A stretch of DNA of 59,751 bases from a virus. The stretch is taken from IMG/VR virus record IMGVR_UViG_3300044608_001438, positions 1 to 59,751 of that record. The stretch is one strand, 5' to 3'. The notes under the pieces were generated by a model. That model saw only the letters and a list, made by a program, of their open reading frames with translations. It made no database searches and was not told the origin of the DNA. Shown here one piece after another: positions 2,890-59,622 of this stretch (the stretch's first letter is position 1; each line of letters starts with the position of its first letter). The position numbers were made by a program, and so were the translations under genes.

Positions 2890-3037
2890 GTCGCGTCTCC
2901 TGTTCCTCGTTCGTTCGAGTTCCTTTGTCGCGGTCACCTTGCCGCGTCATGCCCTAATTATATACCCTACATCGGCCAGGACAACCCCAGCCGTTCAGTT
3001 TTTCGGAAAAATTCCGGAAAAATTCCGGCCCAGTTTT
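2890..3037 (-). promoter_or_regulatory. promoter module 1 (drives the methyltransferase)
   Basis: Read on the minus strand: two tandem GGAATTTTTCC elements, then -35 TTGTCC (2979-2984), a 16-bp spacer containing GGCCGAT, and -10 TATAAT (2957-2962). These are followed by GACGCGGCA and a hairpin CTCGAACGAACGAG (2906-2919) just before the ribosome binding site. The arrangement fits a sigma-70 promoter. Four further near-copies occur at 8403, 13830, 21225 and 59483. Confidence 0.75.
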
Positions 3038-8399: not shown

Positions 8400-8402
8400 C
8401 GT

Positions 8403-8528
8403 CTTGTCCCTCGTATCTTCGAGTTGCTTTTCGTTCGCGGCTCGTTGCCGCGTCTTCAATCATCATGACATATCATCGGCCAGAAGGAAACCCCAGGTCG
8501 AACATTTTTCGGAAAAATTCCGGAAAAA
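8403..8528 (-). promoter_or_regulatory. promoter module 2
   Basis: Near-copy of the module at 2890: tandem GGAATTTTTCC-type elements, the spacer with GGCCGAT, a -10 at CATGAT (8462-8467), the GACGCGGCA leader and the hairpin at 8410-8423. The -35 (TTTCCT) is the weakest of the set. Confidence 0.65.
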
Positions 8529-8568: not shown

Positions 8569-8588
8569 AAGGTCTCGCGCGAGACCTT
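8569..8588. promoter_or_regulatory. dispersed palindrome site 3 (perfect)
   Basis: AAGGTCTCGCGCGAGACCTT, a perfect 20-bp palindrome touching the stop codon of dnaN. Confidence 0.85.
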
Positions 8589-13829: not shown

Positions 13830-13965
13830 GTCGTGTCCTCGTTCGTTCGAGTTCGTTTCGTTCGCGGTCCCTTGCCGCGTCTTCAATCAATATGACCTAT
13901 CATCGGCCAGAACTCAACCCCGCCGGGATCATTTTTCGGAAAAATTCCGGAAAAATTCCAGCCCC
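13830..13965 (-). promoter_or_regulatory. promoter module 3
   Basis: Same order as at 2890: tandem GGAATTTTTCC, -35 TTGAGT (13912-13917), 17-bp spacer with GGCCGAT, -10 CATATT (13889-13894), GACGCGGCA, and hairpin 13838-13851 before the start codon. Confidence 0.75.
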
Positions 13966-20464: not shown

Positions 20465-20959
20465 TTAAACCAATTCAAGAGCGGACCGGAGCGTGTCCAG
20501 CGTGTCACGGCCTGCCACGATATTCACGTCGCACTCGTCATGAGGCAAGCCGGTCTCGCGGTTGAATCCGGCTCCGTTCTTGGCCACGTGATCGCTGACC
20601 CGCAGATCGAGCGACTGACCGTTTTTGTCGAGCACATAGTACCGGCTCGCGGAGTGTGAGCAACTTCGAATCGTCACTTCCCAGCCCAGCGACTCGGCCA
20701 TCGGAACCACGCCACGAACCAGAGCTTCGAAGGCGTCGCGGATCGCGTCATACTTCGCATCGGCTTCGGCCTGATCTTCGCGCTCCAGCTCTTCTTTGTG
20801 GTCTTCTTCGTCAATCTCCTGTTGGATGCACTCGGCCAGGAACCGAAGCTCGTCGTAGGTCGGCTCGCGGTCGTGCCGTTCGGTGAGGATCTCGCGGGCT
20901 TGGACAATCACTTCGTCCGTCGCGTCGATCGTTTGTGGCTTGTTCTTGTTCTTGCTCAT
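20465..20959 (-). CDS. acidic hypothetical protein
   Basis: A 164-residue protein with a strongly acidic helical middle (CIQQEIDEEDHKEELEREDQ) and a C-terminal half of strand character (GWEVTIRSCSHSASRYYVLD). The ATG at 20959 follows a CTCG hairpin and GAGGA. Not recognised. It lies downstream of the terminator at 20996, so it needs its own promoter or read-through. Confidence 0.65.
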   Translation of the reverse strand: MSKNKNKPQTIDATDEVIVQAREILTERHDREPTYDELRFLAECIQQEIDEEDHKEELEREDQAEADAKYDAIRDAFEALVRGVVPMAESLGWEVTIRSCSHSASRYYVLDKNGQSLDLRVSDHVAKNGAGFNRETGLPHDECDVNIVAGRDTLDTLRSALELV

Positions 20960-20968
20960 AATCCTCTC

Positions 20969-20982
20969 CTCGTGTCTTCGAG
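20969..20982 (-). promoter_or_regulatory. 5'-UTR CTCG hairpin
   Basis: CTCGAAGACACGAG directly before GGAGAGG and the start at 20959. The ribosome binding site adjoins the 3' arm, so folding could affect initiation. Confidence 0.5.
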
Positions 20983-20995
20983 TTATCCGCCCAAG

Positions 20996-21019
20996 GCCCC
21001 GGGTCACGCGACCCGGGGC
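20996..21019 (-). terminator. strong GC hairpin after the gene at 21034
   Basis: GCCCCGGGT...ACCCGGGGC, a perfect 9-bp stem with a 6-base loop. No U-run follows, so termination strength is uncertain. Confidence 0.55.
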
Positions 21020-21033
21020 AAACCAATTTCCGA

Positions 21034-21219
21034 TCAGCCCTTCAAGAACTCAAGAGACTCTCTGGCTGTCTTTCCGAGATAGACACCATCTCGCCACCAA
21101 CCGGCCAGAGTCTCACCTCGCCAATTCTCCGCCTTTTCCTTGACCGCCCCCAGCTCAAGCAGCTCTTGGCGGGCGATGTCTTCCTTGCTGGCGATCTGAT
21201 TCGATACCTTCTTGCTCAT
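21034..21219 (-). CDS. small helical protein in a single-gene unit
   Basis: A 61-residue protein (SKKVSNQIASKEDIARQELL, then WRGETLAGWWRDGVYLG). It lies between promoter module 4 and a GC hairpin. Not recognised; composition fits a small regulator or scaffold. Confidence 0.65.
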   Translation of the reverse strand: MSKKVSNQIASKEDIARQELLELGAVKEKAENWRGETLAGWWRDGVYLGKTARESLEFLKG

Positions 21220-21224
21220 GGTCT

Positions 21225-21345
21225 TGTCCTCGTTTCTTCGAGTTCTGTTCTGCGCGACTGACTGCCGCGTCTTCGATCATTATACACTCTATCGGCCCGA
21301 GGGCAACCCCAAGCAGGCTATTTTTCGGAAAAATTCCGAAAATTC
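21225..21345 (-). promoter_or_regulatory. promoter module 4
   Basis: Upstream GGAATTTTTCC element, -35 TTGCCC (21301-21306), 16-bp spacer with GGCCGAT, -10 TATAAT (21279-21284), GACGCGGCA, and hairpin 21229-21242 before the start at 21219. Confidence 0.78.
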
Positions 21346-21445
21346 CGGCGACGGGATTCGTCCGGATTCTTGTTTTCCCTTGTTTTTCTTGGGTTTCCGG
21401 CGTCTAGCCCCGGACGGAATCGGCTCGGATTTTCGTCCGGATCCG

Positions 21446-21465
21446 AAGGTCTTGCGCGAGACCTT
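21446..21465. promoter_or_regulatory. dispersed palindrome site 8
   Basis: AAGGTCTTGCGCGAGACCTT, in the non-coding region upstream of promoter module 4. Confidence 0.8.
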
Positions 21466-21514
21466 CGCCCAATTCCAGTCGATTTCCCCGACCTCAAGGC
21501 GCACCGCCATCCCA

Positions 21515-21835
21515 GGCTGAATATAGACTTTAGGGGCCTAGTATCAACCTTGCGGGGTGGTGCGTGCTGCTCGCTGATTACGCTCGGGAAGTCGCTTATG
21601 CGGGGCTCTTTGCCTCTTGCGAGGTTTCAGCGTATGGACCGGGACGCATGCGTCTTGGACGGATCAACTACCGTCGCGTTGCCCGGATAGACTCCTCGAT
21701 CGAAATCGAGGAGGAGCCCCTTTCGCGACCTCCTTTGCGACCTCTTCGGCATGAGGGGGCGAGCATCCTTTATGCTCTCCGGCCCGGTGTCGGTTGGTAA
21801 ACCGAAGGGGGGCCAGTTGAGATTCCCCGAGCGCA
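21515..21835. other. non-coding stretch rich in hairpins
   Basis: No convincing gene. Several strong inverted repeats occur: CCTCTTGCGAGG near 21612, GACGCATGCGTC near 21644, CTCCTCGATCGAAATCGAGGAG near 21691, GAGCAT...ATGCTC near 21761, and CGGTTGGTAAACCG near 21790. The cluster suggests a structured RNA, an origin, or a control region. A plus-strand frame 21564-21800 exists but lacks good support. Confidence 0.4.
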
Positions 21836-21852
21836 CGCGATGGGTGCCAAAT

Positions 21853-21920
21853 AAAAAAGCCACGTGTAGACCGCTTCGACTAGGCACACACCCCCATGCC
21901 CAATCTCAGCCACGTGGCTT
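21853..21920 (-). ncRNA. candidate 68-nt small RNA
   Basis: A sigma-70-like promoter (see 21927-21955) would start transcription near 21920. The transcript opens with an AAGCCACGTGG arm and closes about 60 bases later with its complement CACGTGGCTTTTTT, a terminator-like end. A short GGCA...TGCC hairpin may form inside. There is no ORF. The size and the promoter-to-terminator spacing suit a discrete sRNA. Its target is unknown. Confidence 0.55.
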
Positions 21921-21926
21921 CAGATA

Positions 21927-21955
21927 AGTATAGGGGCGCGGCTATGGGCAATCAA
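21927..21955 (-). promoter_or_regulatory. promoter of the candidate sRNA
   Basis: -35 TTGATT (21950-21955), 17-bp spacer, -10 TATACT (21927-21932). It differs from the repeated module. Confidence 0.6.
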
Positions 21956-22044
21956 GTCCGGTCTAGGAACCGACTGCCGGTATCTATCATAGGCAAGAGG
22001 CAAGCGCAAGAAAACCGGCAATCGGAAAATTCCCGACGGATCCA

Positions 22045-22064
22045 AAGGTCTCGCGCGTGACCTT
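22045..22064. promoter_or_regulatory. dispersed palindrome site 9
   Basis: AAGGTCTCGCGCGTGACCTT, immediately left of the 18-bp iteron-like repeats. Confidence 0.8.
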
Positions 22065-22069
22065 ACGAA

Positions 22070-22108
22070 ATCCGAACGATTCCGAACGGGATCCGAACGA
22101 TTCCGAAC
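22070..22108. repeat. iteron-like direct repeat pair
   Basis: ATCCGAACGATTCCGAAC occurs exactly at 22070-22087 and 22091-22108, separated by GGG; a partial ACCGAACGGG follows at 22131. Each unit holds two TCCGAAC cores. The location in the largest non-coding region beside a palindrome suits an origin or operator. Confidence 0.6.
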
Positions 22109-22144
22109 CCTCCGTAATTCCCGGATAGTTACCGAACGGGAACG

Positions 22145-22180
22145 AAAAAAGCCGCCCCAAGGCTTCCCCAGGAACGGCTT
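22145..22180 (-). terminator. possible terminator
   Basis: On the minus strand AAGCCG...CGGCTTTTTT, a 6-bp stem with a long loop followed by a U-run. It would end transcription of the leftward genes starting at 22399 only if they extend this far. Confidence 0.4.
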
Positions 22181-22294
22181 CCCGGCTGATCGCTCCACCG
22201 GCATTTCAGCGCCCAAACGCGCATTGGAGCCGGTGATTCGGTTAGTTCACTGCGACAGCCTCAAAATCGACGCACTTTCCCTACGTCGATTCGC

Positions 22295-22399
22295 TCATGG
22301 TCCAAAGAGCGCCCACAGGATCCCGCAGGTAGCGACAGTGACAAGAGCGAGGAACCACCATCGCGGATAGTTCTCGCGATCATTCCACCAGTAGCTCAC
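22295..22399 (-). CDS. 34-aa membrane peptide
   Basis: Begins GTG SYWWNDRENYPRWW and continues with a hydrophobic helix (FLALVTVATCGILWALF). GGAGG lies eight bases upstream. It is the last gene before the large non-coding region. Function unknown. Confidence 0.55.
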   Translation of the reverse strand: MSYWWNDRENYPRWWFLALVTVATCGILWALFGP

Positions 22400-22452
22400 C
22401 GCCAAACCTCCAAAATAGCCCCATAGACGAACGCAACACGATAAACGCCCAA

Positions 22453-22701: not shown

Positions 22702-22882
22702 CGATTTTTCCTTCCAACTTCTTCGCGACCTCGGAACGCCGACCGGCCAGCGACTCACGGTATCGAGCGTAGCAGATCGCCGCCTTCTGGTCATCCGGCT
22801 TGTCTTCGCCAGCCATCGCCGCGATGCATCGGGAAACGTACTCACCCTCGTCTTCATTGGGTGTCGGTGTTGGGATCGGCAC
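22682..22882 (-). CDS. small conserved phage protein
   Basis: A 66-residue protein starting MPIPTPTPNEDEGEYVSRC, then DQKAAICYARYRES. It matches a common small phage pattern PxPxxxExxxxFxxRC...DQKxAIC of unknown role. It overlaps the genes on both sides. Confidence 0.65.
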   Translation of the reverse strand: MPIPTPTPNEDEGEYVSRCIAAMAGEDKPDDQKAAICYARYRESLAGRRSEVAKKLEGKIDGPMGR

Positions 22883-23393
22883 TGGTGGCTCCTTTGTGTA
22901 GTCCTTCGCGATCGAAACTTGCGACGCCTATCGGGGCGCATTCAATCAAGTCGGAACCAACGTACGGCATCCCGTTTGTATGCGGGGAGTATTCGCCGAA
23001 TCGAAAGTGAGTGACTGCGGTCAAAAACGGGTCAGTGACCAAAGGTGTCATATCCGGATGGACGTAGCGAGCCCCTTGCAATCCATTCTCTACGGCCAAT
23101 TCCAGCGCGAACATCACCCGCACCGCAGCATTGACTAGATGCGGCTCGGATCGATCGCCCAAGCGAAACTCGTTGAGATGGTTCATCGCATGGGCAATCT
23201 GCGATTCGATCGGAATCTTCTTCCAGTTTCCCGGCCCGTACTTGCGGGATCCAAACCCGCAGCACTGAGCGAGGAGTCGCAAGGCAAACGGCGGAACCTG
23301 TGAAAAGTCCGCCTCCGTGAATGACTGCCGCCCGCCCTGCTCGTTCTCTACTGTTTCACCCTCAGGCGCCACAGGCCACCTCCGGAAAATCAA
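22854..23393 (-). CDS. dATP/dGTP diphosphohydrolase-like (DUF5664-type) protein
   Basis: A 179-residue protein whose first 120 residues fit this helical family: GRQSFTEADFSQVPPFALRL, CGFGSRKYGPGNWKKIP, HAMNHLNEFRLGD and a later HLVNAAVRVMFALEL. The KYGPGNW and MNHLN...GD blocks correspond to the substrate and metal sites of MazZ-like enzymes that act on purine dNTPs. No PurZ-like gene was seen, so a fully modified genome is not implied. The last 50 residues are of unknown type. Confidence 0.65.
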   Translation of the reverse strand: MIFRRWPVAPEGETVENEQGGRQSFTEADFSQVPPFALRLLAQCCGFGSRKYGPGNWKKIPIESQIAHAMNHLNEFRLGDRSEPHLVNAAVRVMFALELAVENGLQGARYVHPDMTPLVTDPFLTAVTHFRFGEYSPHTNGMPYVGSDLIECAPIGVASFDREGLHKGATSADPNTDTQ

Positions 23394-34594: not shown

Positions 34595-34614
34595 AAGGTC
34601 TCGCGCGTGACCTT
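34595..34614. promoter_or_regulatory. dispersed palindrome site 12
   Basis: AAGGTCTCGCGCGTGACCTT, overlapping the stop of the beta-helix gene and upstream of the gene at 34584. Confidence 0.85.
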
Positions 34615-50426: not shown

Positions 50427-50446
50427 AAGGTCTCGCGCGTGACCTT
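50427..50446. promoter_or_regulatory. dispersed palindrome site 15
   Basis: AAGGTCTCGCGCGTGACCTT, between the portal stop and the head morphogenesis start. Confidence 0.85.
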
Positions 50447-55749: not shown

Positions 55750-55787
55750 AGTTGATCTCCTGAAAAAAACTAGAACACCTAACCCAT

Positions 55788-55861
55788 TCCCGCCTGCCGG
55801 ATTTGAACCGGCAATTCCCAGCGTTGCCGCTGGTCGTGTTTCCTGCATACACCACGGCGGG
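55788..55861 (-). tRNA. tRNA-like element, probably non-decoding
   Basis: Read on the minus strand it is 74 bases and folds as a cloverleaf: acceptor CCCGCCG/AGGCGGG (six of seven pairs), D-stem GTGT/ACAC with a GG-containing loop, anticodon-arm stem CCAGC/GCTGG, and T-arm GCCGG-TTCAAAT-CCGGC. The anticodon loop GGCAAC has only six bases and lacks the universal U33, so normal decoding is unlikely. No CCA is encoded. It lies just upstream of ssb and may be a degenerate tRNA or a tRNA mimic. Confidence 0.55.
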
Positions 55862-55867
55862 AGCCGA

Positions 55868-59482: not shown

Positions 59483-59622
59483 GTGTCTCCTGTTCCTCGT
59501 TCGTTCGAGTTGGTTTTCGTTCGCGGCTCGTTGCCGCGTCATGCCCTAATTATACACCCTACATCGGCCAGGACAACCCCAGCCGTTTAGTTTTTCGGAA
59601 AAATTCCGGATTATTTTTCGCC
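59483..59622 (-). promoter_or_regulatory. promoter module 5
   Basis: -35 TTGTCC (59571-59576), 16-bp spacer with GGCCGAT, -10 TATAAT (59549-59554), GACGCGGCA and hairpin 59496-59509. It is almost identical to module 1 and occupies the same map position. Confidence 0.75.

Follow-up and report, generated by a model that had tools for sequence, protein, structure and literature searches.

The DNA analysed here, referred to as the window, is the 59.75-kb virus record IMGVR_UViG_3300044608_001438 (positions 1 to 59,751). All called genes lie on the minus strand, and the gene set includes terminase, portal, capsid, beta-clamp-like, ERF, helicase and DNA methyltransferase proteins. The closest match of the helicase in the genome collection comes from a Planctomycetota MAG (71%). 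ARAGORN reported one tRNA-like gene of undetermined anticodon at 55787-55862. The longest coding-free stretch of the window spans 1233 nt (21220-22452) and contains a promoter-like site, a terminator hairpin and, downstream of both, a conserved structured RNA (Table 1). The next called minus-strand gene after the hairpin starts at 21219; downstream of the structured RNA, two small genes are followed by the helicase-methyltransferase pair. A first-pass annotation of the hairpin had placed it in the largest non-coding region, where no ORF fits, and both statements are borne out. All gap ORFs of at least 25 codons have negative codon log-odds, compared with about +0.17 per codon for the called neighbour genes, and none of them matched a family at the curated cut-off. 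Coding readings of an 86-aa GTG ORF (21887-21627) and a 73-aa ORF (21510-21289) were dropped, each having a negative codon score and no family above the cut-off; their weak tblastn matches represent the RNA core or a repeat module.

Table 1. Features of the non-coding gap and their coordinates in the window.
Feature	Position	Strand	Basis or remark
Intrinsic terminator closing the upstream gene block, distinct from the hairpin	22145-22178	-	-19.0 kcal/mol, U6
Copy of 20-bp palindrome (17 in the window)	22045-22064		Flanks the RNA locus
Long imperfect hairpin around the 12-bp palindrome AGCCACGTGGCT (21908-21919), an alternative to the terminator	21864-21966	-	Predicted only
Promoter-like site TTGATT-17-TATACT	21927-21955	-	9/12 matches, predicted start about 21920
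Candidate short RNA: stem AAGCCACGTGG/CCACGTGGCTT, 44-nt loop with inner hairpin, then U6	21853-21920	-	Folding, shuffles
Enclosing helix: GGAGGTCGC-GAAA-GGGGCTC (21733-21714) with GAGCCCC-GCATAA-GCGACTTCC (21608-21587)	21587-21733	-	Partner swap
Homologous segment of the structured RNA family	21595-21728	-	Profiles trained without phage copies
Hairpin CTCCTCGAT-TTCG-ATCGAGGAG, directly 5′ of the core	21692-21713	-	Sequence of this hairpin varies among members
Core: CCGGG-CA-ACGC stem, 5-bp hairpin with loop UAGUUGAU, 3′ strand UGCGUCCCGG	21634-21688	-	Covariation
Copy of the same 20-bp palindrome	21446-21465		Downstream of the structured RNA

The promoter and hairpin elements described by the first-pass annotation are present on the minus strand, from 21955 down to 21853. 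The hexamers TTGATT (21955-21950) and TATACT (21932-21927) are separated by a spacer of 17. By itself this match is weak evidence and not above chance, as a scan of 4 kb returned three such sites versus 1.3 expected. The hairpin that follows looks like an intrinsic terminator with a promoter-like site at its base. Its GC-rich stem of 10-11 bp stands directly before U6, and the predicted start at 21920 coincides with the stem base. The candidate RNA (AAGCCACGTGG...CCACGTGGCTTTTTT, 21920-21851) folds at -34.5 kcal/mol (z -5.2), and a longer 81-nt piece (21920-21840) gives a z of -3.2. In 60 dinucleotide-shuffled windows, a stem of at least 11 bp with a long loop and a U-run arose 0.10 times per window, and such a terminator with a promoter of at least 9/12 at the stem base did not arise once. 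The combination of promoter and terminator exceeds chance, by criteria that were set after the feature had been seen.

The same DNA can encode a second, competing fold. In the predicted long hairpin (-44.7 kcal/mol, z -3.6) the upstream stretch 21966-21922 pairs with the terminator loop, and the two predicted folds are mutually exclusive. Which of them prevails depends on the 5′ end of the transcript. A transcript from 21920 forms the terminator only (-34.5 versus -20.6 kcal/mol), the minimum-energy fold of a transcript from 21966 is the long hairpin, and from 21985 the terminator wins again (-52.9 versus -48.5 kcal/mol). Judged by these folding energies alone, the region has the predicted anatomy of a start-site-dependent attenuator. 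A perfect 12-bp palindrome at the start site could also act at the level of DNA, as an operator or part of a replication origin, with the hairpin being incidental, and short direct repeats at 22065-22106 would suit such an element. We find this hardly credible, however, as AGCCACGTGGCT is unique in the window, the GC skew has no inflection at the palindrome and the arms lead into a U-run in gene orientation. Adjoining the RNA locus, the interval 22065-22140 holds directly repeated short words (ACGRRATCCGAACGATTCCGA) and more copies of CCGAACG, iteron-like in appearance.

Long-loop terminators with an inner hairpin and a U-run are also found in leaders of the same helicase-methyltransferase phage group (L004, L016, L023, L137, L186, L171/L172). 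The leader element of these related phages is ordered as promoter, strand a, a mostly A-rich linker, strand B, a small hairpin, strand a′, 0-4 nt, strand B′, a U-run and a start codon 6-24 nt further on. It was located at L016 3624-3716, L004 3899-3993, L023 59-144 and 2611-2694, L137 2708-2793, L186 7609-7693, L171 7417-7495, L172 8054-8130 and L075 6203-6294. The a:a′ and B:B′ helices are predicted to form a pseudoknotted terminator; locks of at least 8 bp occur in eight of 68 long-loop terminators of related phages versus 0.1 expected, and compensatory changes are seen among the leader homologs L004/L016/L186 and L171/L172. In the window, strand a (TAGACCG, 21964-21958) could lock to CGGTCTA just before the 3′ arm. 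This 7-bp lock is correctly placed, and 12 of the 68 distinct long-loop terminators have locks of at least 7 bp, compared with 0.85 expected. Nevertheless, the leaders of the related phages differ from the window element: their lock helix spans 7-12 bp, the linker is mostly rich in A, the promoter precedes strand a, and a start codon follows the stem by 6-24 nt. The window lock has 7 bp, whereas the class is recognized by at least 9 bp that stop 0-4 nt short of the 3′ arm; the linker of 37 nt is not A-rich, no start codon lies 6-24 nt past the stem, a better promoter follows strand a, and the lock energy does not differ significantly from shuffles (p 0.07-0.16). With its short lock, long linker and missing start codon, the hairpin was not accepted as a member of this class, and we regard a pseudoknotted leader terminator at this site as very improbable.

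The substantive result of the locus is a conserved RNA family, whose copy in the window (21728-21595) lies outside the segment singled out by the first-pass annotation. When the gap was compared with the fetched loci by means of a single-sequence profile, one match emerged, in the phage contig L145, the helicase of which is a 68% relative of the window helicase. Over a 55-nt core both copies adopt the same fold, with two compensatory changes. A covariance model built from these two sequences retrieved a third copy from a Planctomycetota chromosome, which raised the compensatory pairs to four of 14. The three-sequence model then matched 31 of 398 genomes of one Planctomycetota class at E≤0.01 and at least 24 of the 398 at E≤1e-5, some of them with two copies. 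An independent pattern search detected the RNA in 18 of the 398 genomes, with a reversed control pattern giving zero throughout, and there were no matches in 488 genomes from two other phyla. Among the R1 matches, L301/L304 falls in what looks like protein-coding sequence and was discarded, and L302 scored a weak 25 bits. The R3 genome searches, in which few of many first-look candidates were scored, had lower sensitivity than R2 and the pattern search. When both phage copies were left out of training, sequence profiles still matched the window, at 21728-21635 (E 1.4e-13) and at 21695-21595 (E 2.3e-14). Model R2, of which the window copy is itself a part, scores that copy at 78.9 bits. Rfam 15 gave no match to the structured RNA at gathering or relaxed thresholds.

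Covariation supports the proposed structure. In an alignment of 26 distinct family sequences, 93.4% of the cells are paired and double-sided changes number 49, compared with 12.7 ± 3.5 in shuffles; sliding the partners by one column destroyed the signal. The 26-sequence alignment was fitted to the model and thus leans towards the structure, and the two- and three-sequence alignments were made without it. The copy in the window has the core stems with their conserved loops as well as the enclosing helix and the 5′ hairpin, the latter standing 5′ of the core with variable sequence in most members. The pair at columns 13/71 is mostly open outside the window copy, and helix 1 is thus shorter at its inner end in most members than it is in the window. 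Of 22 members, 21 are predicted to form the enclosing helix, and a GAAA / UAAG-like internal loop is often visible in the alignment. In the window, its own partners yield -49.2 kcal/mol versus a mean of -25.3 kcal/mol for partners taken from other loci; the corresponding means across members are -33.7 for own and -26.7 kcal/mol for swapped partners (mean rank 5.5 of 20). Additional modules on the 5′ and 3′ sides, for instance a hairpin loop UUNNAACCUC, can be seen in the alignment of members. In the window these outer modules are partly visible in the alignment but gave zero profile matches, and profiles did not confirm any extent of the RNA past 21733-21587. The provable extent is therefore about 150 nt, and a full length of perhaps 350-400 nt is an estimate. 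A promoter-like site containing TATATT (21547-21520) lies just beyond the provable RNA; it may belong to the 3′ end of the RNA and was not counted as a promoter.

The family is carried by two phage contigs (the window and L145) and by Planctomycetota of one class, there in regions that resemble prophages or are otherwise mobile. Scanning the neighbours with PADLOC and PHROG revealed no single conserved partner at the bacterial loci, and a tRNA stood beside one of the 26 loci scanned. Genes that recur next to the RNA encode type I restriction subunits, SNF2/DEAD helicases, a ParB-methyltransferase fusion and other methyltransferases, as well as an anti-restriction protein, integrase, resolvase and transposase. 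Among these genes are members of the PHROG families to which the helicase and the methyltransferase of the window belong. Such a setting fits an accessory RNA of phages and prophages. A link to DNA modification is suggestive only, because mobile elements carry such genes anyway, and an accessory role tied to DNA modification or restriction would be a guess. One of the bacterial loci (L303 9176-10302, on the Planctomycetota chromosome G177) suggests a decayed mobile or defence island. Here the AT-rich gap that holds the RNA is bordered on one side by an HsdR/YgjP pair and on the other by an ORF with no more than a fragment of a D12 adenine methyltransferase domain.

The U-run of the terminator ends at 21853 and the provable RNA begins by about 21733, the distance between hairpin and provable RNA being about 95-120 nt. 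A comparable terminator was absent upstream of all 21 further loci of the family that were checked, so that the terminator is a feature of this phage and not of the family. The hairpin might be an independent trans-acting phage sRNA and the conserved downstream RNA a separate gene. The spacing between the two would allow for this, and a promoter in register with the stem base together with a strong terminator makes up a complete start-stop unit. On the other hand, the terminator hairpin accounts for nearly the whole molecule, and neither exact words in viral and genome contigs nor distant blastn in phages and plasmids revealed a homolog of the 70-nt hairpin. The missing homologs are weak evidence, because the close phage relatives in the viral collection are fragments that do not span the hairpin locus. 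Synteny via the neighbour proteins 20465-21007 and 22854-23393 yielded zero viral relatives, the RNA locus is not syntenic in L197 (a 75% relative of the window phosphoesterase), and the conserved 500-nt gap upstream of the helicase in L011/L015 has no significant similarity to the window gap. Pairing of the hairpin loop with phage start regions, a check that had been proposed along with the small RNA, was no better than that of shuffled loops (p about 0.6). A separate trans-acting RNA is unlikely in our judgement. Of the original proposal, a small RNA with its own promoter and terminator, the part that is supported is a locus for non-coding RNA that includes a strong intrinsic terminator; a conserved independent sRNA is unsupported, since no homolog was found and the other 21 loci have no upstream terminator.

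The upstream gene block already ends in its own terminator at 22178-22145, so that the second one points to a transcript starting between the two. This bears on a reading in which the hairpin is a mere insulating terminator against upstream read-through, TATACT is coincidental and the structured RNA starts elsewhere. Read-through beyond 22145 is possible, a TATGAT site (21994-21989) offers an alternative start, and promoter matches of equal quality occur by chance about 1.3 times per 4 kb. Against it speak the terminator that the upstream block already has and the coincidence of promoter and stem base, absent from all 60 shuffles. We consider a pure insulator quite unlikely.

We favour, with somewhat less than even confidence, a model in which the 1.2-kb gap is a minus-strand RNA locus and the hairpin a promoter-proximal terminator that yields a terminated leader of the structured RNA, about 70 nt long. 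The conserved product of the gap would be the structured RNA around 21733-21587. RNA polymerase starting at TATACT would generate the ~70-nt RNA, for which the terminator is the only possible fold, and read-through past the hairpin would lead to the structured RNA. Transcripts from further upstream, able to form the long hairpin, would continue into the structured RNA. The analysis shows the anatomy of the terminator, the non-coding nature of the gap and the RNA family with its covariation; we infer that the promoter is used, that termination and read-through both occur and that the two RNAs form one unit. Several observations speak against an attenuated locus: from 21985 the terminator is preferred again, the promoter matches at only 9/12 positions, and the 21 other family loci without an upstream terminator indicate that the RNA as such does not include one. 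To our knowledge, promoters of Planctomycetota phages are poorly known, and the 9/12 match is to be read accordingly. More tentatively still, a new RNA family may be spread by Planctomycetota phages and mobile elements, recurrently beside DNA-methylation, restriction and helicase genes, with a start-site-dependent attenuator that gates its synthesis here and releases the 70-nt RNA.

Transcription attenuators and terminated leader RNAs have two mutually exclusive folds, one of them a terminator, ahead of a downstream unit. Likewise, the locus has two exclusive predicted folds, one a terminator, before a downstream transcribed unit; in contrast, that unit is a non-coding RNA without a known sensing partner. 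As far as we know, the phage-borne structured RNAs GOLLD and ROOL are still without known function. They are large ornate RNAs of phages and prophages (PMC12286853). The present family resembles them as a structured non-coding RNA of phages and prophages with unknown function, covariation-supported stems and no conserved neighbour gene. However, the window RNA did not match the Rfam covariance models of GOLLD, ROOL or OLE at gathering or relaxed thresholds, its provable extent (about 150 nt) is much smaller, no tRNA island, a frequent neighbour of GOLLD and ROOL, exists in the window and a tRNA accompanies only one of 26 family loci, and the family was seen only in Planctomycetota and the two phage contigs. 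RNA-based prophage origins of mycobacteriophages also express a non-coding RNA from a phage gap of several hundred bases (PMC7157519). The RNA described here, known from sequence, shares this setting but differs in that no parABS cassette was found among the window genes searched and that the family occupies varied chromosomal sites. It is uncommon to find a structured RNA that has strong covariation and is yet uncatalogued. A family common to phage and Planctomycetota prophage-like regions, many near methyltransferase, restriction or helicase genes, provides a testable lead on the role of such RNAs in a phylum with little-studied regulatory RNA. The locus also teaches that a striking hairpin can mark the right place and the wrong molecule.

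Repeated elements surround the RNA locus. The statement that the hairpin stands outside the repeated module family was roughly right for this gap element, except that copies of a 20-bp palindrome flank it and a promoter module starts at 21349. The palindrome (AAGGTCTCGCGCGAGACCTT) occurs at 17 sites from 3051 to 59663 with up to three mismatches (0 in 100 shuffles), for instance at 8569-8588, 34595-34614 and 50427-50446. It is common to close phage relatives; most copies mark the 3′ end of a minus-strand gene, in some cases overlapping the stop codon, and no U-run comes after them. The module, approx. 125 bp long, is found upstream of genes in five copies with 75-79% identity (21220-21349, 8401-8526, 13830-13962, 2904-3029 and 59494-59608) and holds a TTGCCC-16-TATAAT promoter-like site (21306-21279). 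In L011 (6870-7503) and L015 (3724-4360), a gap of ~630 bp upstream of the helicase is 91% identical and contains a terminator-like hairpin on the opposite strand, both arms of which have changed between the two phages.
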